Below are positions 17,757 to 61,529 of a stretch of 64,000 nt of DNA, piece after piece. Origin of the DNA: a virus; IMG/VR virus record IMGVR_UViG_3300027782_000027, positions 124,001 through 188,000 of that record. One strand, given 5' to 3'. Below the pieces are notes generated by a model. It searched no databases. It was not told the DNA's origin and saw only the letters and a list, made by a program, of their open reading frames with translations. A program made the position numbers and the translations under genes. Numbering within the stretch: position 1 is the stretch's first letter; each line of letters begins with the position of its first letter.

Positions 17757-17757
17757 C

Positions 17758-34946: not shown

Positions 34947-34971
34947 TCTAACAAAAACTATTTATGTTAGA
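34937..34971 (+). promoter_or_regulatory. Perfect 10-bp inverted repeat over a stop/start junction
   Basis: TCTAACATAA (34937-34946) and TTATGTTAGA (34962-34971) are perfect inverted copies around a 15-base loop. The left arm carries the stop codon of the SprB-like gene and the right arm reaches the first base of the next ATG. In RNA it could hide the next start codon. No U run follows, so it is not a standard terminator. Confidence 0.45.
34959..34965 (+). promoter_or_regulatory. TATTTAT motif before the Thr-Pro-linker gene
   Basis: TATTTAT ends five bases before the ATG at 34971 and overlaps the right arm of the inverted repeat there. Confidence 0.35.
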
Positions 34972-43176: not shown

Positions 43177-43545
43177 ATGGAATTTTTTATTAACAAAGGT
43201 GCAACACTGCCTGTTCTTAAAATGCAAGTGGTTAAAGATGGTATTGCTGACATAACAGAGTTTATGTCACTGATAGAAACCTCGTTGATTTATTTTTCCA
43301 TGATAGATGTTAAAACGGGAGGTTACAAGATTCTGAATAAGAAAGGAGGGTTTGTTGAAAAGACATTTATTGACCCAAACGCTGAGACAGAATACTATGT
43401 TTATTATAAATTCACTTCAAGCGATACAAGTAGAGAGGGACTTTATGAAGGAGAGTTTGTTTTTATCACTGATACAGGAACTTATATTTTACCAATCAGA
43501 GAAAAACTTACGATAAAAATTGGTAATAGTTACGTATCTATTTAA
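43177..43545 (+). CDS. Small structural protein, paralogue of the next gene's head (122 aa)
   Basis: A 122-residue beta-rich protein starting MEFFINKGATLPVLKMQVVK. The next gene starts MEWFIKKNSTLPVFQVEISK and both continue with matched strands (YYVYYKFTSSDTSREGLYEG against YYVNYQFTSRETKNEGKFLV). The two are therefore tandem paralogues, one as a stand-alone protein and one fused to a linker and tail. The fold is not identified; it looks like a small immunoglobulin-like virion domain. One base separates the two genes. Confidence 0.72.
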   Translation: MEFFINKGATLPVLKMQVVKDGIADITEFMSLIETSLIYFSMIDVKTGGYKILNKKGGFVEKTFIDPNAETEYYVYYKFTSSDTSREGLYEGEFVFITDTGTYILPIREKLTIKIGNSYVSI

Positions 43546-43546
43546 T

Positions 43547-44755
43547 ATGGAATGGTTTATTAAGAAAAATTCAACGTTACCAGTTTTCCAAGTTGAGATA
43601 TCAAAAGACGGAAGAAGTGATTTTGGTTTAGATGAAAATATTTCGGGTAATACAATTTTAATTTCGGTATATGACGAAATTAATAAGAAATATGTTGTAG
43701 CGTCTAAAGAATGTTATATTACAACAAGTGCGTCTACTGTTAATCCTTTAGATATTACTTATTATGTAAACTATCAATTCACAAGTAGAGAAACAAAAAA
43801 TGAAGGTAAGTTTTTAGTTCAGTTTTTAAAACAATCATCTCAGGGTATTGTTATTATACCATTACCTCAAAAAATTTATGTAAGTGTTCTTAGTAGTTTT
43901 AGTTTAAACTCTTACTCTTATCCAACTAATAATCCTTACATTATTGATAGACCTTGTTGTAACGCACCTGCTCTACCTGCAACACCTACTCCGACTCCAA
44001 GTATTACTCCAAGTGTTACACCAACAATGTCTTTAACACCTACGAGAACCCCAACTCTCACCCCAACAACGACAACAACCCCAACATTTACTCCGACACC
44101 ATCTATAACAAAACCTTTGTACTACGCTTATGTATTCGCAGAACCACAAGATTCTTCGGCAAGTGGTTCGTTGTATGGATTAGGAAGTTATATGTATTAC
44201 TTGGCGGATGGTGTTACAGTTGATACTAATGTTAATTGGTACGGATGGGGTAATTCGGGAGCTCTTCCATTACCGACAAGTCCAAACTACAGTTATATGA
44301 TGAACAAATACTCATCATACTCAGGATTTACGGGTGGAACAGGAAACTTTGTTAAACCTACAGACTTAAAAGGTGTGTTAAACCAATTCTCAAATACTAT
44401 TAACGATAGTTTCGGATGTTTAATTAACCAATACACATTTGAGACAATTGAGGTTAATAATAGTGATATTAACACTAGCTTACAGTACATGTATACGATT
44501 TGGATACCACTTGCTGGTGTGGGGGGAAGTTTAAATAACATGACAGTAAATGTTGGTTATCAATCACAACCTTGTGACTTTGATATTTTAGCAACTCCTG
44601 ACCCTAAAATTTCGGTTGGGAATATTACAATAACTTCAGGTGGAGCGATACCTGCGGGGACTTATAGAGTATTATACTTGTCTAACGATGGATTGTTACC
44701 TCCAAAACTTCCTGATAAAAATAATTATTATTTCAAAGGGGTGTATAAAACCTAA
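43547..44755 (+). CDS. Modular fibre-region protein: Ig-like head, Thr-Pro linker, shared tail (402 aa)
   Basis: The start is the ATG at 43547, because its MEWFIKK matches the start of the upstream paralogue; an upstream TTG at 43520 would overlap that gene needlessly. Residues 1-140 are the paralogous head. Residues 146-190 are a TPTPSITPS-type linker. Residues about 192-402 are a tail beginning YAYVFAEPQDSSASGS and ending YYFKGVYKT, related to the tail of the 334-residue protein at 34971. A conserved YTIWIPLAG (YTWIIPTNL in the relative) is visible. It is followed 29 bases later by the giant fibre gene, so it may take part in the same appendage. Confidence 0.75.
   Translation: MEWFIKKNSTLPVFQVEISKDGRSDFGLDENISGNTILISVYDEINKKYVVASKECYITTSASTVNPLDITYYVNYQFTSRETKNEGKFLVQFLKQSSQGIVIIPLPQKIYVSVLSSFSLNSYSYPTNNPYIIDRPCCNAPALPATPTPTPSITPSVTPTMSLTPTRTPTLTPTTTTTPTFTPTPSITKPLYYAYVFAEPQDSSASGSLYGLGSYMYYLADGVTVDTNVNWYGWGNSGALPLPTSPNYSYMMNKYSSYSGFTGGTGNFVKPTDLKGVLNQFSNTINDSFGCLINQYTFETIEVNNSDINTSLQYMYTIWIPLAGVGGSLNNMTVNVGYQSQPCDFDILATPDPKISVGNITITSGGAIPAGTYRVLYLSNDGLLPPKLPDKNNYYFKGVYKT
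43982..44116 (+). repeat. Thr-Pro-rich linker repeat
   Basis: 45 codons of Thr/Pro/Ser repeats ([21 protein letters not shown]) inside the 402-residue protein, like those at 35193-35408. Confidence 0.85.
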
Positions 44756-44784: not shown

Positions 44785-47700
44785 ATGGCAATACCGTATC
44801 AAAATCCAATAAGTGCGTCCCAAATTACAGGACCTTTCAGTGTAGCGAGAACAAGCCCATACGGAACCAATTTTAATGTTTTAAATGTTGGTGGATGGCA
44901 AGAGGCGGCATACCTTACTAATTTAGGTTTAATATTTAGTGGGCAAGGACAACAACAATTAAGTGTTAATAATATACCTATTAATATTAACATTGGTAAC
45001 GGTACATTTTCTCCAACATATTTAACTTTAAATTCTGACAATTTCTCTTCGGGTAGAAGAAGATTGGGTATGATTGTTTGGGTTAATGAAACTGAAACAG
45101 CATATCAATATCAAATAGACAATTACAATGATTTATGGGATGCGGCGGTAAGTGCTAATTCTGTAACTCAATTATCTTACGAAACTATTGTAAAGAACAA
45201 TACACCTGAAGGTCAGGCATTTATTAATGCTTGGACAGGTTCAACTATTGAAGGTGTTAGTGGCGTAACAAGAGCAAATGCTCGTTGGAGAGTTTTTGCA
45301 CAAGGTACTGAATTAACGGGTGGTACTTATTTTTCAGGTACAAGTACATTAGAATTATATAATAGTGATGGAACTGTTATTTCTGTAACAGGTATTACGG
45401 CATCTGGTTCTAATGGTAGTTCTGGAACATCAGGTTCAAGTGGTTCATCAGGTAGTTCAGGTTCAAGTGGGTCTTCGGGAACTTCAGGTAGTAATGGTTC
45501 GTCAGGTAGTAGTGGAACAAGCGGAACAAGTGGAACATCGGGTAGTACAGGAACTAGTGGTTCATCAGGAAGTGTAGGTACAAGTGGTAGTTCGGGATTA
45601 AGTGGTGTTGACGGTACAAATGGTACTAGTGGTTCATCTGGAAGTGTAGGTACATCAGGAACTTCAGGGTCATCAGGAAGTTCAGGTACAGGTGGAACAT
45701 CAGGAACTTCAGGTACATCAGGAAGTACTGGAACTTCAGGTTCAAGTGGTAGTGTTGGGACTAGTGGTACATCAGGTTCAAGTGGTTCTTCAGGAAGTGT
45801 TGGTACGTCTGGTTCATCTGGAAGTGCAGGTACATCAGGAACTTCAGGGTCATCAGGAAGTTCAGGTACAAGCGGAACATCAGGAACTGGAGGAACTTCA
45901 GGTTCAAGTGGTAGTGTTGGGACTAGTGGTACATCAGGAACAAGTGGTTCTTCAGGTACATCAGGTAGTTCAGGTTCAAGTGGTTCATCGGGAAGTTCAG
46001 GTTCAAGTGGTTCATCGGGTACATCAGGTAGTACTGGTACTAGTGGTAGTAGTGGAACAAGCGGAACGTCGGGTTCATCAGGTTCTGCGGGAAGTAGTGG
46101 TTCATCAGGTAGTGTTGGAACATCTGGTTCAAGTGGTAGTTCAGGTAGTTCTGGTTCATCAGGTACATCTGGCTCAAGTGGTAGCTCTGGTTCAACAGGT
46201 TCGTCAGGTAGTAGTGGTATAACTGGGTCTTCAGGTACGAGTGGTAGTTCTGGCACATCAGGTTCATCTGGTAGTTCAGGTTCTTCAGGTTCATCTGGTA
46301 GTTCAGGTTCTTCAGGTAGTACTGGTTCATCAGGAACTAGCGGAACATCAGGAACATCAGGTACAAGTGGTAGTTCAGGTTCTACAGGAACATCGGGTTC
46401 TACAGGAACATCGGGTTCTACAGGAACATCGGGTTCATCAGGTAGTAGTGGCTCAAGTGGAAGTTCAGGATTGACAGGTTCATCAGGAACATCGGGTTCA
46501 TCAGGGACATCGGGTTCATCAGGTAGTTCTGGTTCAAGTGGTAGTAGCGGAAGTACAGGGTCTTCGGGCACAAGTGGTAGTTCTGGTACATCAGGTTCAT
46601 CAGGAAGTTCAGGTTCATCAGGTTCTAGCGGTAGTGTTGGAACTTCGGGAACAAGTGGTTCAAGTGGAAGTTCAGGTTCTTCAGGAAGTGTAGGAACATC
46701 AGGTACAAGTGGTAGTTCAGGTTCGTCTGGCTCAAGTGGAAATACAGGTTCAAGTGGAACGAGTGGTTCATCAGGTACATCTGGCTCAAGTGGTAGTTCA
46801 GGTTCGTCTGGCTCAAGTGGTTCAAGTGGAAGTTCAGGTTCTTCAGGAAGTGTAGGAACATCAGGTACAAGTGGTAGTTCAGGTTCTTCAGGTAGTTCAG
46901 GTGTTAATGGTTCTTCAGGGACTAGTGGTAGTTCGGGAACATCTGGTTCTTCAGGAAGTTCGGGTTCATCAGGTTCTAGTGGTAGTTCAGGAACATCTGG
47001 CTCAAGCGGGTCTTCTGGTTCAAGTGGAAGTACTGGTTCTTCAGGAAGTGCAGGTACATCGGGTAGTGTAGGAACTAGCGGTAGTTCTGGTTCATCTGGT
47101 TCTTCAGGTAGTACTGGCTCAAGTGGTACTTCAGGTTCATCAGGTAGTGTAGGTACTAGTGGTTCATCAGGTAGTGTAGGTACTAGTGGTTCATCAGGTA
47201 GCACTGGTTCAAGTGGTAGTAGCGGAAGTACAGGGTCTTCTGGTACAAGTGGGAGCTCAGGAACATCTGGTACTAGCGGTAGTTCTGGGTCATCTGGTTC
47301 AGTTGGTACAAGCGGTTCATCAGGTAGTGTTGGAACATCTGGTTCATCAGGTTCTGTTGGTACTTCAGGAACATCGGGTTCATCAGGTAGTACTGGTTCA
47401 AGTGGAAGTTCAGGAAGTAGTGGTAGTGTAGGAACAAGTGGTTCTTCAGGGACATCTGGCTCAACAGGTACTTCAGGAACATCAGGTTCAAGTGGGTCTT
47501 CAGGTAGTTCGGGTTCATCAGGAAGTTCAGGTACAAGCGGAACATCAGGTTCAGTAGGAACAAGTGGTTCATCGGGAAGTTCAGGGTCAACAGGAACTTC
47601 AGGTTCAAGTGGGTCTTCAGGTAGTTCAGGAAGTAGCGGAACATCTGGTTCTAGTGGAAGTGTTGGAACTTCTGGCACATCAGGAACAAGTGGTTCATCG

Positions 47701-50700
47701 GGAAGTTCTGGTTCTGCCGGTACAAGTGGAAGTGTAGGAACAAGTGGTACTTCAGGTTCATCTGGCTCAAGTGGAAGTTCAGGTTCAACAGGTAGTTCAG
47801 GTACTAGCGGAACATCTGGAACAAGTGGTTCATCAGGTTCTAGCGGTAGCGCTGGAAGCTCAGGAACGTCAGGTTCTAGCGGTAGCACAGGTTCAAGTGG
47901 TTCTACTGGCACGTCAGGTTCTTCAGGAACAAGTGGTTCTGTAGGTACAAGCGGAACATCTGGTTCCTCAGGAAGTGTAGGTACTTCAGGTACTAGTGGA
48001 AGCTCAGGAAGTGTAGGAACATCTGGTTCAAGTGGTACTACTGGTACCTCAGGAACATCAGGTAGTTCAGGTTCATCTGGTAGTGTTGGTACATCAGGAA
48101 CTTCGGGTACTAGCGGAACATCAGGTTCTAGCGGTTCGTCAGGAAATAGTGGAAGTTCAGGTACAAGTGGAACATCGGGTTCAACTGGGTCTTCAGGCTC
48201 AAGTGGTAGTTCGGGAAGTGTTGGTACATCAGGAAGTAGTGGTTCTTCAGGTTCTAGTGGTAGTACTGGAAGCTCAGGAAGTACAGGTACATCGGGTTCA
48301 AGTGGAACTTCAGGTTCTTCAGGTACTAGCGGAACATCGGGAACTAGTGGAAGTTCAGGAAGTGTAGGTACTTCAGGTACATCAGGAAGTTCTGGTTCAG
48401 TAGGAACATCGGGTACTAGTGGTAGTTCTGGTTCAGTAGGAACATCGGGAACTAGTGGTAGTTCTGGTTCGTCTGGTTCAGTTGGTACTAGCGGTTCTTC
48501 AGGAAGTGTTGGAACTAGTGGAACATCAGGTAGTTCAGGTTCAAGTGGTTCTAGCGGAGTATCAGGTTCATCGGGTTCTAGTGGTATTAGTGGAAGTTCA
48601 GGTACTTCAGGTACTAGTGGAACTTCAGGTTCAAGTGGTTCTACTGGTACGTCAGGTTCTAGCGGAAGTGCTGGAAGCTCAGGAAATAGTGGGACATCAG
48701 GTTCTTCAGGTAGTGTTGGAACATCTGGTACTAGCGGTTCGTCAGGTAGTGTAGGGACTAGCGGAACATCTGGTTCAAGTGGTAGTTCAGGAAATAGTGG
48801 AACATCAGGAACTAGTGGCTCATCGGGTAGTGTAGGAACATCAGGAACAAGTGGTACGTCAGGTAGTTCTGGTTCAAGTGGTAGTTCAGGAAGTGTAGGT
48901 ACTTCAGGTACTAGTGGTAGTTCAGGAAGTGTAGGAACATCTGGTTCAAGTGGCTCTACTGGTACGTCAGGTTCTAGCGGAAGTGCTGGAAGCTCAGGAA
49001 ATAGTGGAACATCTGGAACAAGTGGCAGTTCAGGTTCTTCTGGTTCAAGTGGTAGTACTGGTACGTCAGGTAGTTCGGGAAGTACAGGAACATCTGGCTC
49101 TTCAGGAAGTGTTGGTACATCAGGAACTAGTGGAACTAGTGGAACTTCAGGTAGTTCTGGTTCAGTAGGAACTTCAGGTACTAGTGGTAGCGTAGGAACA
49201 TCGGGTACATCAGGTAGTTCTGGTTCATCGGGAAGCAGTGGTTCTTCAGGTTCTAGCGGTAGTGCTGGAAGTTCAGGAACTAGTGGGTCTACAGGTTCAA
49301 GTGGAAGTAGTGGTTCTTCAGGAAGTGTTGGAACAAGTGGTTCTAGCGGAAGTACTGGTACATCAGGTAGTTCAGGAAGTGTTGGTACAAGTGGTTCTTC
49401 AGGAAGTACTGGAACATCAGGAACAAGTGGTAGTTCAGGTTCTGTGGGTACATCAGGTACTAGCGGTACGAGCGGAAGTTCTGGTTCAAGTGGAACTTCT
49501 GGTTCTTCGGGAAGTACTGGTACATCTGGTTCATCGGGTAGTGTAGGTACTTCAGGAACAAGTGGTTCATCTGGAAGTACGGGTACATCAGGTAGTGCTG
49601 GTTCTTCTGGCTCAAGTGGTAGTTCAGGTTCTTCAGGAAGTTCTGGAAGCGTTGGTACATCTGGAACTAGTGGTTCTTCAGGAAGTACAGGCACAAGTGG
49701 TACATCAGGTAGTTCAGGGTCAAGTGGAACTGGAGGTTCGTCAGGTTCAAGTGGAAGCACCGGAACCTCAGGAACATCAGGAAGTGTTGGAACATCAGGA
49801 ACGTCTGGTTCTTCAGGAAGTGTTGGTACGAGTGGAACATCGGGTTCATCAGGTAGTGTTGGAACATCTGGTTCTTCAGGTTCATCAGGAACAAGTGGAA
49901 CATCAGGTAGTTCTGGCTCTGTAGGTACTAGTGGTACATCAGGGTCTTCAGGAAGTGTGGGAACAAGTGGGACTAGCGGTACATCAGGAACTTCTGGTTC
50001 ATCAGGAAGTGTGGGAACTAGCGGTAGTTCGGGTAGTGTAGGTACTTCAGGAACTAGCGGTACATCAGGTTCTAGTGGAAGCGTTGGTACATCAGGTACG
50101 AGCGGTTCTTCAGGAAGTTATGGTTCAAGTGGTAGTTCAGGAAGCACAGGTACAAGTGGAACATCTGGTTCTTCAGGTACGACAGGTAGTTCGGGGAGTA
50201 GTGGTAGTTCAGGTTCTTCGGGTAGTGTTGGTACTTCAGGAAGTAGTGGTTCAAGTGGAACATCAGGGTATAGCGGAAGTAGTGGTAGTTCTGGCTCATC
50301 AGGAAGTGCTGGTACTTCAGGGGTTAACGGAAGTTCTGGAACATCAGGAAGTAGTGGTTCATCTGGGTCTTCAGGTTCTAGCGGTTCATCAGGAACGTCT
50401 GGCTCAAGCGGAAGTACTGGTTCATCTGGTTCATCTGGTTCATCTGGAAGTACGGGAACATCAGGGTCTAGCGGTTCAACAGGTACAAGTGGTACATCGG
50501 GTAGTGTAGGTACATCAGGTTCATCGGGAAGTTCTGGCTCATCAGGTTCTAGTGGAAGTGTTGGTACTTCTGGAACAAGTGGTTCTTCGGGAAGTACTGG
50601 TTCATCAGGTAGTTCAGGAACATCAGGAAGTACAGGTACATCAGGAACAAGTGGTAGTTCAGGTTCTGTGGGTACATCAGGTACCAGCGGTACGAGTGGA

Positions 50701-53700
50701 AGTTCTGGTTCTTCGGGAAGTAGTGGAACATCAGGAAGTTCTGGAAGCGTTGGTACATCAGGTACGAGCGGTTCTTCAGGAAGTTCTGGTTCATCAGGGA
50801 TATCTGGTTCAAGTGGTAGTTCAGGAAGCACAGGTACAAGTGGAACATCAGGTTCTTCAGGTAGTGTAGGAACTTCTGGTTCTTCAGGTAGTTCTGGTTC
50901 AGTAGGAACTTCAGGTACTAGTGGTACATCAGGAACATCGGGTTCATCGGGTAGCTCTGGCTCAACAGGCTCGTCAGGTAGTAGTGGAACTTCTGGTTCA
51001 TCAGGTTCAAGTGGTAGTGCTGGCTCATCTGGTAGTTCTGGAAGTACAGGAACATCAGGCACTAGCGGTAGTACTGGTTCAAGTGGTAGTAGTGGTACAT
51101 CAGGAAGTTCAGGTTCTTCGGGTTCTGTAGGTACATCAGGGACTGCGGGTACATCAGGAAGTACAGGTTCTAGTGGTAGTAGTGGTTCATCAGGTAGTGT
51201 GGGTACTTCAGGAACTAGTGGTTCGTCAGGTTCTAGCGGAAGCGCTGGAAGCTCAGGGACATCAGGTTCTTCAGGTACAAGTGGTACTTCGGGTTCTAGT
51301 GGTAGTACTGGAAGTTCAGGAACATCTGGCTCGTCAGGAAGTGTTGGTACATCAGGTTCTTCAGGAAGTACTGGAACTAGTGGCTCAAGTGGTAGTTCAG
51401 GAACCTCAGGTTCTTCTGGCTCAACAGGTTCAAGTGGTTCTTCAGGAAGTGCTGGTTCTAGTGGTAGTACAGGTTCATCAGGAACATCAGGGTCAAGTGG
51501 TTCGGTAGGTACTTCGGGGACTAGTGGAAGTTCAGGTAGTGTAGGAACATCTGGTTCAAGTGGGTCTTCAGGCTCTAGCGGAAGTGTTGGAACATCAGGT
51601 TCTAGCGGTTCTTCAGGAAGTTCTGGGTCATCAGGGTCTAGTGGAAGTGTTGGTACATCAGGTTCTTCGGGAAGTACTGGTACGTCAGGTTCAAGTGGTT
51701 CTACAGGAAGCTCTGGCTCAAGTGGTTCTACAGGAACTAGTGGAACTTCAGGTTCTTCAGGTAGTACAGGAACATCTGGTACGTCAGGTTCAAGCGGTAG
51801 TGTAGGTACATCAGGAACTAGTGGTAGTTCTGGTTCAGTTGGTACAAGTGGTACATCTGGCTCAAGTGGTAGTGTTGGTACATCTGGAACTTCGGGGTCA
51901 TCTGGAAGTGTTGGTACAAGCGGTTCTTCAGGAACTAGTGGGTCAAGTGGAAGTAGTGGTTCATCAGGTTCTACAGGAACTTCTGGTTCATCAGGAACAA
52001 GTGGTTCTTCAGGTAGTACAGGAACATCAGGTAGTGCTGGTTCTTCTGGCTCAAGTGGTAGTTCAGGTTCAAGTGGAAGTACTGGAACATCAGGTTCCTC
52101 AGGTTCAAGTGGTAGTACAGGTTCTTCAGGAAGTTCTGGAACGAGTGGTAGTTCAGGAACTAGTGGGTCTTCTGGTAATTCTGGTTCTTCAGGAACTAGC
52201 GGAACATCTGGAACAAGTGGTTCATCAGGTTCTAGCGGTAGCGCTGGAAGCTCAGGAACGTCAGGTTCTGTAGGTACGAGCGGAACATCAGGTTCTAGCG
52301 GTAGTACTGGTTCAAGTGGTTCGTCAGGTACTAGCGGAACTTCAGGTTCAAGTGGTTCATCTGGAAGTTCAGGGTCATCAGGAACATCTGGTTCTTCAGG
52401 TAGTACAGGTTCAAGTGGAACTAGTGGTTCTTCAGGAACATCTGGTACTAGCGGTAGTTCAGGAAGTTCTGGTTCATCGGGTAGTACAGGTACTTCAGGA
52501 AGCTCAGGCTCAAGCGGAACAAGTGGTTCTTCAGGGTCTAGCGGTTCATCGGGTTCTAGTGGAAGTTCAGGGTCATCTGGTAGTACAGGTTCAAGAGGGA
52601 CTAGCGGAACATCTGGAACAAGTGGTAGTTCAGGAACATCTGGTTCAAACGGTACATCAGGAAGTTCTGGTTCATCGGGTAGTAGTGGGAGTTCAGGTTC
52701 TGGTGGTACTTCAGGTTCATCAGGATTAAGTGGGGTTGATGGTACAAACGGTACTAGTGGTAGTTCAGGGACTAGTGGAACATCTGGTTCAAGTGGTTCA
52801 AGTGGTTCTTCAGGGTCTAGTGGTAGTGTAGGAACAAGCGGAACTTCTGGTTCTTCAGGAAGTAGTGGAAGTGCTGGGTCATCTGGTTCAAGTGGTTCGT
52901 CGGGTACATCAGGTGCTAATGGAAGCTCTGGTAGTTCAGGTTCAAGTGGTAGTTCAGGGACAAGTGGTTCGTCAGGTTCTAGCGGAAGTGCTGGAAGCTC
53001 AGGAAGTTCTGGTTCTGTTGGGACATCAGGTTCGTCAGGTACTTCAGGTTCAAGCGGTTCTTCAGGTAGTAGTGGCTCAAGTGGTAGTTCAGGAAGTTCT
53101 GGTTCTGCGGGTACTTCAGGTTCAAGTGGAAGTGCTGGAACTAGTGGTTCATCTGGTAGTTCAGGGTCTGCTGGTAGTTCAGGGTCAAGTGGAGTAACTG
53201 GTTCTTCAGGTACTAGCGGGTCTTCAGGAAGTTCTGGTAGTTCAGGTTCTAGTGGAAGTGTTGGAACTAGCGGTTCATCAGGTACAAGTGGTTCATCCGG
53301 CTCAAGTGGAAGTTCTGGTTCATCAGGAAGTTCTGGTTCAACAGGTTCATCAGGAAGTTCTGGTTCAACAGGTTCATCAGGAACAAGTGGTACGTCAGGT
53401 AGTAGCGGTTCTAGTGGTAGTACAGGGACTAGTGGTTCGTCAGGAAGTTCTGGCTCAGCTGGTACAAGCGGAAGTTCAGGTTCTACAGGTAGTAGTGGGT
53501 CTAGCGGAAGTGCGGGTTCTTCAGGAAGTGTAGGGACTAGTGGAACATCTGGTTCTAGTGGTAGTTCTGGTTCTAGTGGAAGTACGGGTAGTTCAGGTAC
53601 TAGCGGTAGTAGTGGTTCATCAGGAAGTTCTGGTTCCACAGGTTCTTCGGGAAGTAGTGGAACATCAGGTTCTGTAGGTTCATCAGGTACTAGTGGTTCT

Positions 53701-56700
53701 TCAGGTTCTAGTGGAAGTGCTGGAAGTTCAGGTTCAACTGGTACATCTGGTTCTTCAGGTTCAGTAGGAACAAGTGGAACTTCTGGTTCAAGTGGTAGTT
53801 CAGGTTCTTCAGGTTCAGTAGGAACAAGTGGAACTTCTGGTTCAAGTGGTAGTTCAGGTTCTTCTGGAACTAGTGGAAGTGTTGGTACAAGTGGTTCATC
53901 TGGAACATCAGGTTCTAGTGGTAGTTCAGGAAGTTCTGGTTCATCAGGAAGTTCGGGTTCCACAGGTTCTTCGGGAACATCAGGAAGTACTGGAAGTTCA
54001 GGGTCTAGTGGAAGTACTGGTAGTTCAGGGACTAGTGGTTCGTCAGGGTCTAGCGGAAGTTCAGGTACATCAGGTACTTCTGGTTCAAGTGGGTCTTCAG
54101 GTTCTAGTGGAAGTGTTGGAACATCAGGTACGAGCGGTTCGTCAGGTTCTAGTGGTAGCACTGGAAGCTCAGGAAGTGCGGGTACATCAGGTAGTTCAGG
54201 TTCTGTAGGTACAAGTGGTAGTTCTGGAAGCTCAGGAAGTTCTGGTTCATCAGGTTCTGCGGGAAGTGCTGGTACATCAGGAACATCAGGTTCATCGGGA
54301 AGTAGTGGTAGTTCAGGGTCATCTGGTTCAGCAGGTACATCAGGTGCTAATGGAAGTTCTGGTACTTCAGGAACATCTGGTTCTTCAGGTTCAAGTGGAA
54401 GTAGTGGTTCATCAGGAAGTGTGGGTACATCTGGTTCATCTGGTACATCTGGTACATCAGGAACATCTGGTTCAAGTGGCTCAGCAGGTTCTAGCGGAAG
54501 TGCTGGAAGCTCAGGAAGTAGCGGTTCATCTGGTACATCAGGAGCTAATGGAAGTAGTGGAACATCTGGTTCTTCAGGTTCAAGTGGTAGTAGTGGTAGT
54601 TCAGGTTCAGCTGGTTCTTCTGGAACATCAGGTTCTAGCGGAAGCTCAGGAAGTACTGGTTCATCTGGTTCTTCTGGTACTTCAGGAAGTAGTGGAAGTT
54701 CTGGAACATCAGGTTCAAGCGGTTCATCAGGTAGTTCAGGAAGTGTTGGAACAAGTGGAAGTTCTGGAACTTCAGGTTCAAGTGGTTCGTCAGGTTCTAG
54801 TGGTAGTGCTGGAAGCTCTGGTACGTCAGGTACTAGTGGTTCATCAGGAACTTCAGGTTCAAGTGGTTCGTCAGGTTCTAGTGGTAGTACTGGAAGCTCA
54901 GGAAGTACTGGTACAAGTGGAAGTTCTGGTTCATCAGGTAGTTCAGGAAGTGTTGGTACAAGTGGAAGTTCAGGTTCTGCCGGAACGTCTGGTTCATCAG
55001 GAAGTTCGGGTTCAAGCGGTAGTAGTGGAAGTTCAGGTTCTACTGGTTCAAGAGGAACATCAGGAACATCAGGTAGTAGTGGTACAAGTGGAACATCAGG
55101 TACTTCTGGTTCATCAGGTTCTAGCGGAAGTGCTGGTTCATCAGGTACATCGGGAGCTAACGGAAGTTCAGGTACAAGTGGTACTTCAGGAAGTAGTGGA
55201 AGTTCAGGGTCTAGCGGTAGTGCTGGAAGTTCAGGTTCTACTGGTACAAGTGGCTCTTCAGGAAGTTCTGGTACAAGTGGCTCTTCAGGAAGTTCTGGTT
55301 CATCGGGTAGTAGTGGAAGTGCGGGGTCATCTGGTTCATCAGGTACATCAGGTGCTAATGGAAGTTATGGTACTTCAGGTACTAGTGGAAGTTCAGGGTC
55401 TAGCGGTAGTGCTGGAAGTTCTGGTTCTGTAGGTACAAGTGGCTCATCAGGTTCTAGCGGAAGCGCTGGAAGTTCAGGAAGTACTGGCTCAAGTGGTAGT
55501 TCTGGTTCGTCAGGAACAAGTGGTGCTAATGGTAGTTCAGGAACGTCTGGTTCAAGTGGCTCATCTGGTTCTTCAGGAAGTAGTGGTAGTTCTGGTTCTG
55601 TTGGAACATCAGGTTCTAGCGGTTCATCAGGAAGTTCTGGTTCTTCAGGAAGTACAGGTTCAAGTGGAACATCAGGTACTTCTGGTTCGTCAGGTTCTAG
55701 CGGTTCATCAGGAAGTAGTGGTAGTGCAGGTTCTTCAGGAACATCAGGGGCTAACGGTTCTTCAGGTACAAGTGGTTCGTCAGGTTCTAGCGGTAGTACT
55801 GGAAGCTCAGGAAGTAGTGGTACATCGGGTGCTAATGGAAGCAGCGGAACATCAGGAAGTTCAGGGTCTAGTGGTTCTTCAGGAACTGCTGGCTCAAGTG
55901 GATTATCAGGAAACGACTCTTCTAACTCAGGTAGATGGAGATATAATGGAACAGGTACTACACCTGCAGCAACATTCTTTCAGACAGATAGTACAACAAT
56001 ATCTTCAATTACTAATGTCTATATAAACATTGATGATATAAATTCCACATCTTATGCTTCGTGGTTTTCTGGAATAGATACCATACAGGCTCTTGGTAAT
56101 ACTGTTTATTTACAAATCACACAAGTAGGTTCTAACAATATTATTGGTATATGGGATGTTGCAGGAATTACAGTAACCGGTAGTGTTTATAGATGGATAT
56201 TCAAAGGTAATATTGTTGCAAATGGAACTTTATCCAGTACAGAATATACAATATCATGGGTATTTAATGGTCTTAATGGTTCATCTGGTACGAGCGGAAG
56301 TTCTGGAACATCAGGTTCAAGCGGAAGTTCGGGCAGTTCAGGTTCGTCAGGTAATACTGGAAGTTCAGGAACATCAGGTTCATCAGGAACTAGCGGTTCA
56401 TCAGGTAGTGCTGGCTCAAGTGGAAGTTCAGGTAATACAGGTTCTTCGGGTACAAGTGGTAGTTCAGGGTCTTCAGGTAGTGTAGGTACATCTGGAACGA
56501 GTGGAACATCGGGTACTAGTGGAAGTTCAGGTTCATCAGGAAGTGCTGGTACGAGTGGAAGTTCAGGAACATCGGGTTCAAGTGGTAGTTCAGGTTCGTC
56601 AGGTAATACTGGAAGTTCAGGTTCTTCAGGAACATCAGGGTCCAGTGGTAGTTCAGGAAGTACAGGTTCTTCAGGTTCAAGTGGAACATCAGGAAGTTCA

Positions 56701-59085
56701 GGGTCTAGTGGTTCTTCAGGTTCTAGTGGTAGTGCTGGAAGTTCTGGTACATCAGGTGCTAATGGTAGTTCAGGAACATCTGGCTCAAGCGGTTCATCTG
56801 GCTCAAGTGGAAGTAGTGGTAGTTCTGGTTCAGTTGGAACATCAGGTTCTAGTGGAAGTAGTGGTAGTTCAGGGTCTTCAGGAAGTACTGGTTCAAGAGG
56901 AACAAGCGGTTCTTCAGGAACATCGGGAAGCTCAGGTTCAAGTGGTTCATCAGGTACTTCAGGTTCTAACGGAAGTTCAGGAACATCAGGAAGTGCTGGT
57001 TCAAGTGGTAGTTCAGGTTCATCAGGTTCAAGTGGAACATCAGGTTCTAATGGTAGCTCTGGTACATCAGGTAGTTCTGGTTCAAGTGGTAGTAGTGGTT
57101 CTAGCGGTAGTGCTGGTACTTCAGGTTCAGTAGGGACAAGTGGCTCTTCAGGAAGTGCGGGTAGTTCAGGGTCAAGTGGAAATACAGGCTCTTCGGGTAC
57201 TAGCGGTTCATCAGGAACATCAGGTTCTTCTGGCTCAAGTGGCTCGTCAGGGTCTGGTGGAAGCTCAGGTACATCGGGTAGTAGTGGAACATCAGGGTCT
57301 TCAGGCTCAAGTGGAAGTTCAGGTAGTACAGGTTCATCGGGTTCATCTGGTATTACAGGTTCTTCAGGAACTAGTGGTAGTTCAGGTACATCAGGAAGTT
57401 CGGGTTCATCAGGTAGTAGTGGAAGCACTGGCTCAAGTGGTACTGGAGGTTCTTCAGGAACATCAGGTTCTTCTGGTTCAAGTGGAAGCTCAGGTTCTTC
57501 GGGTAATAGCGGTTCATCGGGAACTTCTGGGTCAAGTGGAACATCAGGTTCTTCTGGCTCTTCAGGTAGTTCTGGGTCTAGCGGAAGTGCTGGCTCAAGT
57601 GGTAGTTCAGGTTCATCGGGTATTACTGGAAGTAGTGGAACAAGTGGTTCTTCTGGCTCAAGCGGAAGTTCAGGAACATCGGGTTCTTCGGGTACTTCAG
57701 GGTCAAGTGGTTCTTCAGGAAGTAGCGGAAGTTCGGGTAATACAGGTTCTTCTGGAACTAGCGGTTCATCAGGTAGTGCTGGTTCAAGCGGAAGTTCGGG
57801 TAATACAGGTTCTTCTGGAACTAGCGGTTCATCAGGTAGTGCTGGTTCAAGCGGAAGTTCGGGTAATACAGGTTCTTCGGGTACAAGTGGTAGTTCTGGA
57901 ACATCGGGGTCAACAGGTTCTTCAGGAAGTTCTGGGATTACTGGTTCCTCAGGTACTTCTGGTTCAGGTTCTGCTGGTTCATCAGGTTCTAGCGGAAGTG
58001 GGTCATCAGGAACAAGTGGATTAGATGGTATAAGTGGAACATCTGGCTCAAGTGGTATTACTGGTTCATCAGGTACTTCAGGTTCTGGCTCATCAGGAAG
58101 TTCAGGGTCTAGTGGAAGTACGGGTTCGTCAGGAACATCAGGTTCGTCAGGAACATCAGGAAGTTCAGGTTCTAGTGGTAGTTCTGGTTCAAGTGGGAGT
58201 ACTGGTTCAAGAGGAACTTCTGGAAGTCAAGGTAACAAAGGAGGTCTTCAGTATATCTATGGTAATGGAGCCGGTACAGCACCTTCTTCAGGTCAATTTA
58301 GTTATAATGGTGCAGGTTCTTCAGTTTATGATTTGAAATTTAATGTAACAACCGCGGATTCTGCAAATATTAGTGATTATTTTTTCAATTTAGTTGGAAA
58401 AAGTGGGATTGTATATTTGATTTTCAATTTAAATGGTTCAAACAAAATTGATATTTATAGCTTTAATAACGTTTCGGTAAGTGGTAGTGATTATCTTTTT
58501 ACAGGAGCTTTAGATACAAATGCTGGAGATACAACACTTACAACTAGTGATTTATGTGCAATTACCATAATTGTTAATGGAGCATCAGGTGCTAATGGTA
58601 GTTCAGGAACTTCAGGTTCAAGTGGTAGTAGTGGAAGTACTGGTTCAAGAGGAACATCGGGTTCTTCAGGTTCAAGCGGAAGTTCTGGTTCATCAGGGAC
58701 TAGCGGTTCATCAGGAACTTCAGGTTCTAGTGGAAGTTCAGGTTCTAGTGGAAGTTCTGGTTCAAGTGGTTCTTCAGGAACTTCAGGTTCAAGTGGAAGT
58801 ACAGGTTCAAGAGGAACATCTGGAAGCTCAGGAACTAGTGGTACTTCAGGTTCATCGGGTTCTTCGGGTACTTCAGGTTCAAATGGTTCATCTGGTACAA
58901 GTGGTAGTTCAGGTTCATCGGGTAGTTCAGGTTCATCAGGGACTAGCGGTTCATCAGGAAGTTCTGGAATTACTGGCTCTTCAGGAACATCAGGTTCAGG
59001 TTCATCAGGAACTAGTGGAGCTGCGGGCGGAACATTCACATTAGGAATTGTTTACACAACCGCAAACAATTTTAACTTTATATAA
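44785..59085 (+). CDS. Giant collagen-like Gly-X-Y fibre protein (4766 aa)
   Basis: A single intact frame of 14.3 kb. Residues 1-180 are an anchor domain shared with the short fibre at 35985 (IPYQNPISASQI, SGRRRLGM). A short linker follows, then 1167 consecutive Gly-X-Y triplets at residues 208-3708. A 120-residue globular insert comes next, then about 220 triplets, a second related insert of 113 residues, about 50 more triplets, and a short hydrophobic end (GTFTLGIVYTTANNFNF). X and Y are nearly always Ser or Thr, with some Val, Ala, Asn and Ile; no proline and hardly any charge is seen in the repeats. A collagen-like triple helix of the first block would be about 1 micrometre long (3501 residues at 0.286 nm each). 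This is a virion fibre or adhesive appendage by position. The repeat could instead adopt a polyglycine-II-like or disordered, glycosylated form. Confidence 0.85.
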   Translation: MAIPYQNPISASQITGPFSVARTSPYGTNFNVLNVGGWQEAAYLTNLGLIFSGQGQQQLSVNNIPININIGNGTFSPTYLTLNSDNFSSGRRRLGMIVWVNETETAYQYQIDNYNDLWDAAVSANSVTQLSYETIVKNNTPEGQAFINAWTGSTIEGVSGVTRANARWRVFAQGTELTGGTYFSGTSTLELYNSDGTVISVTGITASGSNGSSGTSGSSGSSGSSGSSGSSGTSGSNGSSGSSGTSGTSGTSGSTGTSGSSGSVGTSGSSGLSGVDGTNGTSGSSGSVGTSGTSGSSGSSGTGGTSGTSGTSGSTGTSGSSGSVGTSGTSGSSGSSGSVGTSGSSGSAGTSGTSGSSGSSGTSGTSGTGGTSGSSGSVGTSGTSGTSGSSGTSGSSGSSGSSGSSGSSGSSGTSGSTGTSGSSGTSGTSGSSGSAGSSGSSGSVGTSGSSGSSGSSGSSGTSGSSGSSGSTGSSGSSGITGSSGTSGSSGTSGSSGSSGSSGSSGSSGSSGSTGSSGTSGTSGTSGTSGSSGSTGTSGSTGTSGSTGTSGSSGSSGSSGSSGLTGSSGTSGSSGTSGSSGSSGSSGSSGSTGSSGTSGSSGTSGSSGSSGSSGSSGSVGTSGTSGSSGSSGSSGSVGTSGTSGSSGSSGSSGNTGSSGTSGSSGTSGSSGSSGSSGSSGSSGSSGSSGSVGTSGTSGSSGSSGSSGVNGSSGTSGSSGTSGSSGSSGSSGSSGSSGTSGSSGSSGSSGSTGSSGSAGTSGSVGTSGSSGSSGSSGSTGSSGTSGSSGSVGTSGSSGSVGTSGSSGSTGSSGSSGSTGSSGTSGSSGTSGTSGSSGSSGSVGTSGSSGSVGTSGSSGSVGTSGTSGSSGSTGSSGSSGSSGSVGTSGSSGTSGSTGTSGTSGSSGSSGSSGSSGSSGTSGTSGSVGTSGSSGSSGSTGTSGSSGSSGSSGSSGTSGSSGSVGTSGTSGTSGSSGSSGSAGTSGSVGTSGTSGSSGSSGSSGSTGSSGTSGTSGTSGSSGSSGSAGSSGTSGSSGSTGSSGSTGTSGSSGTSGSVGTSGTSGSSGSVGTSGTSGSSGSVGTSGSSGTTGTSGTSGSSGSSGSVGTSGTSGTSGTSGSSGSSGNSGSSGTSGTSGSTGSSGSSGSSGSVGTSGSSGSSGSSGSTGSSGSTGTSGSSGTSGSSGTSGTSGTSGSSGSVGTSGTSGSSGSVGTSGTSGSSGSVGTSGTSGSSGSSGSVGTSGSSGSVGTSGTSGSSGSSGSSGVSGSSGSSGISGSSGTSGTSGTSGSSGSTGTSGSSGSAGSSGNSGTSGSSGSVGTSGTSGSSGSVGTSGTSGSSGSSGNSGTSGTSGSSGSVGTSGTSGTSGSSGSSGSSGSVGTSGTSGSSGSVGTSGSSGSTGTSGSSGSAGSSGNSGTSGTSGSSGSSGSSGSTGTSGSSGSTGTSGSSGSVGTSGTSGTSGTSGSSGSVGTSGTSGSVGTSGTSGSSGSSGSSGSSGSSGSAGSSGTSGSTGSSGSSGSSGSVGTSGSSGSTGTSGSSGSVGTSGSSGSTGTSGTSGSSGSVGTSGTSGTSGSSGSSGTSGSSGSTGTSGSSGSVGTSGTSGSSGSTGTSGSAGSSGSSGSSGSSGSSGSVGTSGTSGSSGSTGTSGTSGSSGSSGTGGSSGSSGSTGTSGTSGSVGTSGTSGSSGSVGTSGTSGSSGSVGTSGSSGSSGTSGTSGSSGSVGTSGTSGSSGSVGTSGTSGTSGTSGSSGSVGTSGSSGSVGTSGTSGTSGSSGSVGTSGTSGSSGSYGSSGSSGSTGTSGTSGSSGTTGSSGSSGSSGSSGSVGTSGSSGSSGTSGYSGSSGSSGSSGSAGTSGVNGSSGTSGSSGSSGSSGSSGSSGTSGSSGSTGSSGSSGSSGSTGTSGSSGSTGTSGTSGSVGTSGSSGSSGSSGSSGSVGTSGTSGSSGSTGSSGSSGTSGSTGTSGTSGSSGSVGTSGTSGTSGSSGSSGSSGTSGSSGSVGTSGTSGSSGSSGSSGISGSSGSSGSTGTSGTSGSSGSVGTSGSSGSSGSVGTSGTSGTSGTSGSSGSSGSTGSSGSSGTSGSSGSSGSAGSSGSSGSTGTSGTSGSTGSSGSSGTSGSSGSSGSVGTSGTAGTSGSTGSSGSSGSSGSVGTSGTSGSSGSSGSAGSSGTSGSSGTSGTSGSSGSTGSSGTSGSSGSVGTSGSSGSTGTSGSSGSSGTSGSSGSTGSSGSSGSAGSSGSTGSSGTSGSSGSVGTSGTSGSSGSVGTSGSSGSSGSSGSVGTSGSSGSSGSSGSSGSSGSVGTSGSSGSTGTSGSSGSTGSSGSSGSTGTSGTSGSSGSTGTSGTSGSSGSVGTSGTSGSSGSVGTSGTSGSSGSVGTSGTSGSSGSVGTSGSSGTSGSSGSSGSSGSTGTSGSSGTSGSSGSTGTSGSAGSSGSSGSSGSSGSTGTSGSSGSSGSTGSSGSSGTSGSSGTSGSSGNSGSSGTSGTSGTSGSSGSSGSAGSSGTSGSVGTSGTSGSSGSTGSSGSSGTSGTSGSSGSSGSSGSSGTSGSSGSTGSSGTSGSSGTSGTSGSSGSSGSSGSTGTSGSSGSSGTSGSSGSSGSSGSSGSSGSSGSTGSRGTSGTSGTSGSSGTSGSNGTSGSSGSSGSSGSSGSGGTSGSSGLSGVDGTNGTSGSSGTSGTSGSSGSSGSSGSSGSVGTSGTSGSSGSSGSAGSSGSSGSSGTSGANGSSGSSGSSGSSGTSGSSGSSGSAGSSGSSGSVGTSGSSGTSGSSGSSGSSGSSGSSGSSGSAGTSGSSGSAGTSGSSGSSGSAGSSGSSGVTGSSGTSGSSGSSGSSGSSGSVGTSGSSGTSGSSGSSGSSGSSGSSGSTGSSGSSGSTGSSGTSGTSGSSGSSGSTGTSGSSGSSGSAGTSGSSGSTGSSGSSGSAGSSGSVGTSGTSGSSGSSGSSGSTGSSGTSGSSGSSGSSGSTGSSGSSGTSGSVGSSGTSGSSGSSGSAGSSGSTGTSGSSGSVGTSGTSGSSGSSGSSGSVGTSGTSGSSGSSGSSGTSGSVGTSGSSGTSGSSGSSGSSGSSGSSGSTGSSGTSGSTGSSGSSGSTGSSGTSGSSGSSGSSGTSGTSGSSGSSGSSGSVGTSGTSGSSGSSGSTGSSGSAGTSGSSGSVGTSGSSGSSGSSGSSGSAGSAGTSGTSGSSGSSGSSGSSGSAGTSGANGSSGTSGTSGSSGSSGSSGSSGSVGTSGSSGTSGTSGTSGSSGSAGSSGSAGSSGSSGSSGTSGANGSSGTSGSSGSSGSSGSSGSAGSSGTSGSSGSSGSTGSSGSSGTSGSSGSSGTSGSSGSSGSSGSVGTSGSSGTSGSSGSSGSSGSAGSSGTSGTSGSSGTSGSSGSSGSSGSTGSSGSTGTSGSSGSSGSSGSVGTSGSSGSAGTSGSSGSSGSSGSSGSSGSTGSRGTSGTSGSSGTSGTSGTSGSSGSSGSAGSSGTSGANGSSGTSGTSGSSGSSGSSGSAGSSGSTGTSGSSGSSGTSGSSGSSGSSGSSGSAGSSGSSGTSGANGSYGTSGTSGSSGSSGSAGSSGSVGTSGSSGSSGSAGSSGSTGSSGSSGSSGTSGANGSSGTSGSSGSSGSSGSSGSSGSVGTSGSSGSSGSSGSSGSTGSSGTSGTSGSSGSSGSSGSSGSAGSSGTSGANGSSGTSGSSGSSGSTGSSGSSGTSGANGSSGTSGSSGSSGSSGTAGSSGLSGNDSSNSGRWRYNGTGTTPAATFFQTDSTTISSITNVYINIDDINSTSYASWFSGIDTIQALGNTVYLQITQVGSNNIIGIWDVAGITVTGSVYRWIFKGNIVANGTLSSTEYTISWVFNGLNGSSGTSGSSGTSGSSGSSGSSGSSGNTGSSGTSGSSGTSGSSGSAGSSGSSGNTGSSGTSGSSGSSGSVGTSGTSGTSGTSGSSGSSGSAGTSGSSGTSGSSGSSGSSGNTGSSGSSGTSGSSGSSGSTGSSGSSGTSGSSGSSGSSGSSGSAGSSGTSGANGSSGTSGSSGSSGSSGSSGSSGSVGTSGSSGSSGSSGSSGSTGSRGTSGSSGTSGSSGSSGSSGTSGSNGSSGTSGSAGSSGSSGSSGSSGTSGSNGSSGTSGSSGSSGSSGSSGSAGTSGSVGTSGSSGSAGSSGSSGNTGSSGTSGSSGTSGSSGSSGSSGSGGSSGTSGSSGTSGSSGSSGSSGSTGSSGSSGITGSSGTSGSSGTSGSSGSSGSSGSTGSSGTGGSSGTSGSSGSSGSSGSSGNSGSSGTSGSSGTSGSSGSSGSSGSSGSAGSSGSSGSSGITGSSGTSGSSGSSGSSGTSGSSGTSGSSGSSGSSGSSGNTGSSGTSGSSGSAGSSGSSGNTGSSGTSGSSGSAGSSGSSGNTGSSGTSGSSGTSGSTGSSGSSGITGSSGTSGSGSAGSSGSSGSGSSGTSGLDGISGTSGSSGITGSSGTSGSGSSGSSGSSGSTGSSGTSGSSGTSGSSGSSGSSGSSGSTGSRGTSGSQGNKGGLQYIYGNGAGTAPSSGQFSYNGAGSSVYDLKFNVTTADSANISDYFFNLVGKSGIVYLIFNLNGSNKIDIYSFNNVSVSGSDYLFTGALDTNAGDTTLTTSDLCAITIIVNGASGANGSSGTSGSSGSSGSTGSRGTSGSSGSSGSSGSSGTSGSSGTSGSSGSSGSSGSSGSSGSSGTSGSSGSTGSRGTSGSSGTSGTSGSSGSSGTSGSNGSSGTSGSSGSSGSSGSSGTSGSSGSSGITGSSGTSGSGSSGTSGAAGGTFTLGIVYTTANNFNFI
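46381..46434 (+). repeat. 18-bp perfect tandem repeat, three copies
   Basis: TCTACAGGAACATCGGGT occurs three times in a row, equal to two triplet units each. Confidence 0.9.
47803..47877 (+). repeat. 75-bp exact dispersed repeat, copy 1
   Basis: Identical over 75 bases to 52195-52269. The two copies are 4392 bases apart, an exact multiple of nine, so exchange between them keeps the Gly-X-Y phase. Confidence 0.92.
52195..52269 (+). repeat. 75-bp exact dispersed repeat, copy 2
   Basis: Identical over 75 bases to 47803-47877, while surrounding sequence encodes similar protein with different codons. Confidence 0.92.
53749..53864 (+). repeat. 54-bp tandem duplication
   Basis: Two adjacent copies with a 54-base period (six triplet units). 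The repeat carries TCAGTAGGAACAAGTGGAAC in both copies, at 53761 and 53815. Confidence 0.88.
55909..56268 (+). other. Globular insert 1 of the giant fibre
   Basis: 120 residues without Gly-X-Y: RWRYNGTGTTPAATFFQTD, later TVYLQITQVGSNNIIGIW, then TGSVYRWIFKGNIV and YTISWVFNG. The order of strands parallels insert 2 at 58240-58578 (YNGAGSSVYDLKF, IVYLIFNLNGSNKIDIY, SGSDYLFTGALD, ITIIVNG). These look like two copies of one beta-rich domain, which may bind ligands or act as a trimerisation point. Confidence 0.75.
56269..58239 (+). repeat. Gly-X-Y block 2, about 220 units
   Basis: Same GSS/GTS-type triplets as block 1, ending in GSQ-GNK next to insert 2. Near 57955-58095 three Gly-Ser-Gly steps lack one residue each, the only visible breaks of the triplet phase in this block. 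Confidence 0.92.
57725..57878 (+). repeat. 63-bp tandem repeat, about 2.4 copies
   Basis: Two full identical 63-base copies (57725-57787 and 57788-57850) and 28 bases of a third. The period is seven triplet units. This is a very recent expansion. Confidence 0.93.
58240..58578 (+). other. Globular insert 2 of the giant fibre
   Basis: 113 residues starting GGLQYIYGNGAGTAPSSGQF, then a strand-rich domain with IVYLIFNLNGSNKIDIY and YLFTGALDTNAGD. It is related to insert 1 by order of strands and by the shared GSN-x-I and SG-S-x-Y-x-F elements. Confidence 0.75.
58579..59028 (+). repeat. Gly-X-Y block 3, about 50 units
   Basis: The last block of GSS/GTS-type triplets, with GSR-GTS units and one Gly-Ser-Gly break near its end, followed by the C-terminal hydrophobic segment. 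Confidence 0.9.
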
Positions 59086-59121: not shown

Positions 59122-59541
59122 ATGCCAGCGAATACAGCTCCAATCTTTACACTATTACCTGAGATTATGTGGGATAATACTATCACAACTGCTAATAATA
59201 CTGGTGATTTAACTTCAGGTACAGTTTATCCTGTATTTACCGCAGGTACCAATGGTAGTTATGTGCAAAAAATAAGATTTAGACATACAGGTGCCAATTC
59301 GGCGGCAACTGTTGCTCGTGTTTGGATTAATAATGGTTCTGCGACTACTAGTGCAATTAATAACACTTTATTTGATGAAATAACAATTGCTGCAAACGCC
59401 ACATTTACAACGAATGCCGCCTCAACCAACTATGAATTACCACTTATGTTTGGTTTACCTCCTAATTATAGACTTTATGTAACAATCGGTGCGGCTGCTG
59501 CAGGTGGTATTGATGCAACGGTTATAGGAGGAGACTACTAA
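59122..59541 (+). CDS. Small beta-rich tail protein, unknown (139 aa)
   Basis: 139 residues rich in Ala, Thr and Asn with a jelly-roll-like strand pattern (YVQKIRFRHTGANSAATVAR, VWINNG, FDEITIAANATF, YRLYVTIGAAAAGGID). Similar compact beta proteins are common among phage fibre or decoration proteins, but no family is assigned. It overlaps the next start by one base. It opens the last transcription-unit-like run of the window. Confidence 0.65.
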   Translation: MPANTAPIFTLLPEIMWDNTITTANNTGDLTSGTVYPVFTAGTNGSYVQKIRFRHTGANSAATVARVWINNGSATTSAINNTLFDEITIAANATFTTNAASTNYELPLMFGLPPNYRLYVTIGAAAAGGIDATVIGGDY

Positions 59542-59732: not shown

Positions 59733-60629
59733 ATGATTGACTATTACAATTTAGCTGACAATCAATATAAAAATCAAGTATATACCGGGTCTATAGGTAC
59801 TAATACTACTTTCATGGTTTATTATTGGATTAAACCAAGAGGTGTTACTATGGTACATATTACTGCTATTGGTGCTGGAGGTGGTGGAGGTGGTGGTAAT
59901 TCTTCTGCGAGTACTGCGGCTTCAGGTGGTTCTGGTGGTGGTTCAGGAGCTATTACAAGATTAACAATCCCCGCTATTTTTTTACCCGACCAACTTAGAA
60001 TAATTGTTGCCGCTGGTGGTTCTGGAGGAACTACAGGTGGAGGTAATACTGCAGCTAATACTTTTGTTGAAGTTGCTAGAGGTTCTGCGGTTGCGGCTAC
60101 CTATGTGTTACAAGCTAACGGTGGTGGTGGAGGTAACGTAGGTGCTGCGGGAGCAGCTTCTGCGGGTGGTGGAGCCGGAGCTATAGGTGTTCAAACTAAT
60201 GCAGTATATCAGGCTTTAGGTACGTTTTCAGTTATTGCAGGTCAAGCGGGTGCTGCAGGTGCAAATGGTGCCGTAGGGGGTACAATAACAATTAACGGTA
60301 ATGCTACAACAGTATCAGGAGGTGCCGCTGGAGGTGGGAAAAGTGCAGCTAATACCTCATTTGGTGGTGGTAATATCAATCCTATTGGGCAAATACCTAC
60401 AGGTAATGGAGGAAGCGCGGGTGGAACTAATAATGGTGATACAGGAACTTATACGTTTAATGGATTTTATAGTGCAGGAGGTGCTGGTGGAGGTGCTTTT
60501 GCAACAGGTACTGCGGGCAGAGGAGGTGATGGTGGACCTGGCAGCGGTGGAGGTGGTGGTGGTTCAGGAGTAACTGGAGGTAATGGAGGTAATGGTGGAC
60601 CCGGTATGGTAATAATAACATGTTGGTAA
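59733..60629 (+). CDS. Glycine-rich adhesin-like protein, first of three (298 aa)
   Basis: It begins with a short strand region (YYNLADNQYKNQVYTG), then a hinge GVTMVHITAIGAGGG and a long Gly/Ala/Asn-rich body with several poly-Gly runs. It ends NGGPGMVIITCW. This is the pattern of glycine-rich domains in phage tail proteins. In T-even phages such as S16 the gp38 fibre-tip adhesins carry poly-glycine-II helices, so a receptor-binding tip is a reasonable inference. Two paralogues follow directly at 60642 and 61530. Confidence 0.72.
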   Translation: MIDYYNLADNQYKNQVYTGSIGTNTTFMVYYWIKPRGVTMVHITAIGAGGGGGGGNSSASTAASGGSGGGSGAITRLTIPAIFLPDQLRIIVAAGGSGGTTGGGNTAANTFVEVARGSAVAATYVLQANGGGGGNVGAAGAASAGGGAGAIGVQTNAVYQALGTFSVIAGQAGAAGANGAVGGTITINGNATTVSGGAAGGGKSAANTSFGGGNINPIGQIPTGNGGSAGGTNNGDTGTYTFNGFYSAGGAGGGAFATGTAGRGGDGGPGSGGGGGGSGVTGGNGGNGGPGMVIITCW

Positions 60630-60641
60630 TAAGTATAAAAT

Positions 60642-61520: not shown

Positions 61521-61529
61521 TATAATAAT

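Follow-up and report, generated by a model that had tools for sequence, protein, structure and literature searches.

A giant Gly-X-Y fibre gene in a large tailed phage, read as a probable tail fibre with a spacer of adjustable length

The stretch of viral DNA analysed here, referred to throughout as the window, is 64,000 nucleotides long and is taken from a virus record of 240,759 bases, in which it spans 124001-188000. It contains a gene for a protein of 4766 residues, most of which is a Gly-X-Y repeat, and the explanation that we prefer, and hold to be probable though well short of secure, is that this is a tail-fibre gene of a large aquatic tailed phage (240.8 kb record) in which the repeat is an adjustable spacer between an exchangeable anchor and an exchangeable tip. 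What is new is the record length, the missing proline and an alternation of codons along the repeat. The features concerned are listed below.

17298..19593, + strand: two baseplate wedge genes (17298-17756 and 17758-19593; PHROGs E 8e-19 and 4e-18)
34971..35975, + strand: partner gene before the first anchor, with a Pro-Thr-rich stretch seen in the sequence; conserved with the anchor in relatives
35985..36974, + strand: paralogous anchored protein of 329 aa, with the same anchor (46% anchor identity) and a short C-terminal domain
38128..39372, + strand: glycosyltransferase, GlcNAc family PF11397 (E 1e-68; 96-98% in the related contigs G003 and G004)
39376..43147, + strand: four glycosyltransferase-like ORFs (39376-40086, 40070-40924, 40917-41480 and 41477-43147; 95-99% in G003 and G004)
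43520..44755, + strand: partner gene immediately before the fibre gene, with a Pro-Thr-rich stretch (92-96% in G003 and G004; 31-56% in distant relatives)
44785..59085, + strand: fibre ORF, 4766 aa, a stop-free frame of equal length in two other assemblies
44785..45405, + strand: N-terminal anchor, aa 1-207 (paralogue, 367 candidate IMG/VR relatives, AlphaFold2 model)
45406..55917, + strand: Gly-X-Y block 1, 1168 unbroken triplets; Pfam Collagen PF01391 match
55918..56268, + strand: globular insert 1, about 117 aa; 25-44% identity to inserts in relatives, no Pfam match
56269..57969, + strand: Gly-X-Y block 2, 189 triplets (run count and Pfam Collagen)
58000..58248, + strand: short runs of 10 and 18 triplets, shifted in phase by single residues (run count)
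58249..58578, + strand: globular insert 2, 110 aa; 28% identity to insert 1, 79% in G003, no Pfam match
58579..59001, + strand: Gly-X-Y block 3, 47 triplets
59002..59082, + strand: short C-terminal end TFTLGIVYTTANNFNFI, kept in G003; a larger tip instead in G004
59122..59541, + strand: next gene downstream, encoding 139 aa, a candidate for the tip or for an assembly partner (90% in G003; missing in G004)
59733..62408, + strand: three Gly-rich proteins, candidate tip adhesins (59733-60629, 60642-61520 and 61530-62408; Gly_rich_2 PF21722; PHROGs tail-fibre assembly and minor tail protein)

An important consideration is whether a chimeric or artificially expanded repeat could have produced such a gene. 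Many relatives break off inside the fibre gene, and in one, L132, an apparent frame shift closes the frame, the fibre (L132:10001-13885) ending after an abrupt change of composition that probably reflects an indel or assembly error. Against an artefact, collapse of a repeat would yield a shorter gene and not a longer one, and no 99-mer occurs twice in the gene, the longest exact repeat being 92 bp. Two further IMG/VR records, 3300009159_000076 and 3300027759_000104, each carry a 4772-codon open frame with an anchor identical to that of the window, and over alignments that cover the whole gene they differ from it at 4 of 28,001 and 1 of 19,001 positions respectively, with no indels. Because two other assemblies give the full-length gene with point differences only, gross misassembly is unlikely and the gene is real and intact, although the agreeing contigs may stem from related samples; we regard an artefact as very improbable indeed.

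The sequence-only reading had described one unbroken frame, and there are no internal stops between 44785 and 59085. Its figure of about 1,430 triplets agrees with the 1432 counted, which fall into in-phase runs of 1168, 189, 10, 18 and 47; the run that it had put at 1167 triplets (45406-55908) is one longer. The description of a nearly two-letter fibre is borne out by the residues in X and Y, the commonest triplets being GSS (712), GTS (418), GST (88), GSV (87) and GSA (47). Pro, Glu, Lys, His and Cys are absent from block 1 (3504 residues), which has three Asp and two Arg. The DNA of block 1, with a GC content of 0.48 against 0.354 for the window, is not a simple repeat, 173 different 9-mers encoding the triplets of the fibre. 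Two long reverse-strand ORFs below the repeat (1477 and 1347 aa) were dismissed as side effects of the stop-poor GGN, TCN and AGY codons.

Glycine occupies all 1168 first positions of block 1 and only 4 of the 2336 X and Y positions, an arrangement for which the chance under random order is about 10^-968. As 678 of the X and Y serines have AGY codons, one transition away from Gly, the strictness of the phase points to structural selection rather than to a loose linker. There are also preferences of order, in that Thr is found 368 times in X and 85 times in Y, and Val in Y (84 cases, all GSV) is followed by Thr in the next X in 83. These speak for a structural or enzymatic constraint, or for an origin from a few units; in two other fibres (L144 and L185) Asp in Y always precedes one fixed residue. 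A flexible, disordered tether with no rod at all would fit the dominance of Gly and Ser, which recalls engineered linkers, and the low hydrophobicity of the fibre. However, a linker has no need of Gly at every third place over 1168 triplets, nor of its exclusion from 2332 of the 2336 other places, nor of fixed rules such as that for Val and Thr, and the tether is accordingly rated as quite improbable.

It had been remarked that Gly-X-Y stretches in phage collagen-like proteins are usually far shorter, and 1168 triplets does exceed every other run sampled as well as the published phage examples consulted; in E. coli prophage proteins the longest collagen domain is 322 aa, or about 107 triplets (PMC3368898). 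Among the matches listed, long Gly-X-Y contigs outside the anchor family have runs of 783 and 861 triplets, and several phage contigs that are unrelated to one another carry Ser/Thr fibres of 700-950 triplets. The figure of 1168 is the record among these matches, which does not in itself prove a global maximum. One contig, G064, has two adjoining giant Ser/Thr Gly-X-Y genes (L329/L330, bases about 60190-77350) whose products, 2553 aa long with a run of 783 triplets and 3122 aa long with 852, have N-termini that do not resemble the anchor of the window.

Length differs even between near-identical phages. G003 shares 96% identity with the window across the 6.7 kb that precede the fibre, and 97.6% within the opening 653 bases of the gene, but its fibre has 2435 aa against 4766, and block 1 is part colinear at 98-100% with the remainder in scattered patches; a near-identical flank joined to a fibre of half the length indicates that fibre length shifts quickly. 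In G004 the anchor is 93% identical, the fibre has 1998 aa and the C-terminus is different. Repeated 31-mers are in surplus in the fibre of the window (366, compared to 3.5 in codon shuffles), as expected of growth through segmental duplication.

The claim of a shared anchor also held, since the domain recurs at 46% identity in 35985-36974 and in hundreds of other phage contigs. Scanned with a profile, IMG/VR gave 367 confirmed candidate stretches, the best 80 of which were kept. In 76 of the 84 loci that were read, Gly-X-Y follows the anchor, nearly always proline-free and Ser/Thr-rich, and the closed fibres of the family among these loci range from 279 to 2796 aa, that of the window being the longest at 4766 aa. 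In 61 of the 84 no stop is reached before the locus ends, almost always because the contig breaks off inside the repeat. Since the assemblies of relatives often stop there, such fibre genes are probably under-counted and under-reported. The family is widespread in viromes. Searches with the anchor gave no match by tblastn among 50,697 phage genomes (nor did the 1863-aa neighbour protein in the same set), none for its profile patterns in GTDB genomes and none in Pfam. An AlphaFold2 model from a 53-sequence alignment reached pLDDT 72, with low confidence for aa 1-37 (a run with 14 sequences gave only 41), and it matched no solved structure in the PDB. Its only significant structural match was UniProt A0A6J5L6I5 from an uncultured Caudovirales phage (E 2.7e-18, 45% identity, 190 columns), an uncharacterised protein of 1293 aa.

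The position of the fibre on the virion has to be judged from gene order. The baseplate wedge genes upstream are of the gp25 and gp6 type, placing the fibre gene in a tail module, and docking of the anchor on the baseplate is the most plausible arrangement. A whisker on the capsid or neck is a rather improbable alternative; the PHROGs matches of the repeat, mostly to tail-fibre families and driven by composition, do include some head-class virion structural proteins, but the gene lies behind the wedge genes and beside those for Gly-rich minor tail proteins. Both anchor genes are preceded by a Pro-Thr-rich partner gene. The short fibre end and the 139-aa gene occur together in the window and G003, and neither occurs in G004, where the tip is fused (two cases against one). 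A tip of the type FDGTTLGITGD... was read after the same anchor in G004 and after a different N-terminus in G064, so that modules are exchanged between fibres. Another tail-module protein (32784-34946) contains SprB-type repeats (PF13573), a domain familiar from surface adhesins of Bacteroidota, and these give a hint of the phage host.

The fold of the repeat is more contentious. Chains that lack proline or charge are expected to form triple helices only weakly, and the proline-free, uncharged composition is a genuine objection to the assumption of a triple helix; proline or hydroxyproline in X and Y is usual in collagens, though not strictly defining, and block 1 has none in 3504 residues. 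Among solved structures the repeat finds its matches in collagens, collagen peptides and BclA. On the other hand, three 500-aa pieces of the repeat match Pfam Collagen PF01391 at E 5e-72 to 2e-74 (238-270 bits, above the curated cut-off of 27.2 bits). A PDB match labelled as a spindle or axial fibril was rejected as a candidate phage fibril, its sequence being an idealised proline-bearing GAPGSQGAPGLQ repeat. No trimerisation domain was recognised in the fibre.

The rod might be of a different kind, a bundle of polyproline-II- or polyglycine-II-type helices or a mucin-like rod dependent on O-glycans. The absence of proline and near absence of charge, the adjoining Gly-rich tail proteins and the adjoining glycosyltransferase cluster favour such a rod, as does the placement of Thr, which is mainly in X whereas bacterial collagens have it in Y (PMC8968730). 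Against it stand the three-residue Gly phase, the hallmark of the triple helix, and the strong Pfam match, although the latter arises from the Gly-X-Y pattern alone. We consider a non-collagen rod unlikely, yet the most serious competitor with regard to the fold. At a rise of 2.9 A per residue (PMC3368898), the earlier estimate of about 1 micrometre stands as arithmetic (1168 x 3 x 0.29 nm = 1016 nm) and is valid only for a triple helix.

The codons of adjacent triplets alternate. The DNA identity of consecutive triplets was 0.523, lower than the 0.579 of shuffles in which the protein and the per-position codon use were held constant (z -13), and this was more than neighbouring-codon context, since a first-order codon Markov model did not account for it (z -13.4). 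The lag-1 score was negative in 60 of 61 non-redundant Ser/Thr fibres, below -2 in 39 of them, giving a sign-test value of 5e-17 in which independence is overstated because ancestry is partly shared. In these fibres the effect was weaker at lag 2 (median z -1.0) and absent at lags 3-5, and other Gly-X-Y fibres alternated weakly (median z -0.7). Serine codons change over from one of the TCN and AGY boxes to the other (same box 0.376, expected 0.527), and within TCN the use of identical codons is likewise avoided; as both are present, tRNA boxes could not be isolated as the sole cause. The phage genome has no Ser, Gly or Thr tRNA genes that might supply translation of the fibre, only one tRNA-Arg (G000, 47205-47279) and a tmRNA-like match (G000, about 50464-50856; L335:10464-10856, minus strand) with an unusual tag peptide, which may be false. 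Most likely, the alternation arises because perfect 9-base tandem repeats are selected against or purged by mutation; a spreading of tRNA demand is a less likely alternative. Codon scrambling is the means by which engineers keep repeat genes stable, and the alternating codons look like its natural counterpart.

Between the two anchor genes lie five glycosyltransferase-like genes, 95-99% conserved in G003 and G004. Apart from the PF11397 gene, 41477-43147 matches HtrL_YibB PF09612, 40917-41480 has a weak GT2 match, and 39376-40086 and 40070-40924 have no family match and are glycosyltransferase-like by eye only. PF11397 occurs in 6 of 12 anchor-family records and in none of 37 other Gly-X-Y records (the anchor having been checked in part of the 37), with p 7e-5, or 0.001 when a close trio is merged, for groups unmatched in contig size. 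All six positives fall in the anchor family, so that PF11397 is not a general companion of Ser/Thr fibres and the association, confined to one lineage, is suggestive only. The neighbouring enzymes might glycosylate the fibre, and the cluster does directly adjoin it and is kept with it in G003 and G004. It is about as likely as not that they act instead on the host surface, the phage DNA or Pro-Thr-rich partners and are unconnected with the Gly-X-Y fibre. The glycosyltransferases of pelagimyophage host-recognition clusters have been taken as O-antigen modifiers (PMC7029224), and moraphages have four conserved glycosyltransferases of unproven target (PMC12619734). In several relatives the glycosyltransferases are not beside the fibre, and the PF11397 genes that come closest, those of XacN1 and RAS14, lie near Pro-Thr-rich proteins rather than Gly-X-Y. 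Pro-Thr-rich stretches (TPTPSITPS...), possible glycosyltransferase targets, are found at 34971-35975, 43520-44755, 62418-62684 and L332:3746-6196.

Comparison with known systems did not uphold the earlier suggestion of a new kind of appendage. Given the Ser/Thr fibres of 700-950 triplets elsewhere, the mainly tail-fibre PHROGs matches and the Pfam Collagen match, the fibre is an extreme variant of the phage collagen-like tail fibres (PF01391; phrog_6320, phrog_5073, phrog_1806), in which an N-terminal virion-type domain is likewise followed by Gly-X-Y and then by a distal end, and which lie in the tail module. It differs from them in its 1168-triplet run, its lack of proline and its two-letter X and Y, and it has no recognised anchor or trimerisation domain of the known families; the PF08400 phage fibre N domain, coiled coil and PfC that define the E. 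coli prophage EPcl proteins were not found, the anchor and inserts having no Pfam match. The bacterial collagen-like proteins BclA and Scl resemble it in having Gly-X-Y with polar residues but are bacterial surface proteins; the collagen-like region of BclA carries oligosaccharides according to a work cited in PMC9614988, and Scl examples have 50-79 triplets, where X holds Pro and Y holds Thr (PMC8968730). Pelagimyophage host-recognition clusters combine tail fibres, collagen repeats and glycosyltransferases in a variable structural region, as here, but the available text describing them mentions no giant Ser/Thr Gly-X-Y protein (PMC7029224). Moraphages, which are aquatic jumbo phages of Bacteroidota, have gp25/gp6 baseplate genes and several conserved glycosyltransferases like those of the window, and the word collagen is absent from the paper (PMC12619734).

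Taken as the tail fibre that we prefer, the protein would dock on the virion, most likely at the baseplate, by its 207-residue N-terminal domain, and the product of the second gene with this anchor would dock at the same place. The Gly-(Ser/Thr)-(Ser/Thr) repeat would form a thin rod of great length, probably a trimer of the collagen type or a related polyproline-II assembly, acting as a spacer that holds the distal end far from the particle. That end, comprising the short C-terminus with the separate Gly-rich proteins encoded downstream, or the fused tip of relatives, would be the first part to touch the host. The spacer could quickly grow or shrink through segmental recombination in the repeat, whilst selection may hold Gly in phase and adjacent triplets on unlike codons, reducing slippage. 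The glycosyltransferases encoded alongside may add sugars to the Ser/Thr rod, which would make it more stable or better hydrated. We infer the tail location most firmly, then the triple helix, then the function of the tip and lastly glycosylation. The most complete version, a proline-free Ser/Thr triple helix of about 1.0-1.25 micrometres, O-glycosylated by phage enzymes, tuned in length by recombination, protected from slippage by alternating codons and the longest single-protein viral appendage, is doubtful as a whole and is put forward tentatively.

Jumbo phage particles measure up to 0.45 micrometres (PMC12619734). If the fold is as supposed, the fibre would be more than twice the length of the largest phage particles and would give the phage a longer reach in probing for its host. 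It also makes testable the idea of a collagen-type rod without proline, in which glycans may serve as the substitute for proline.
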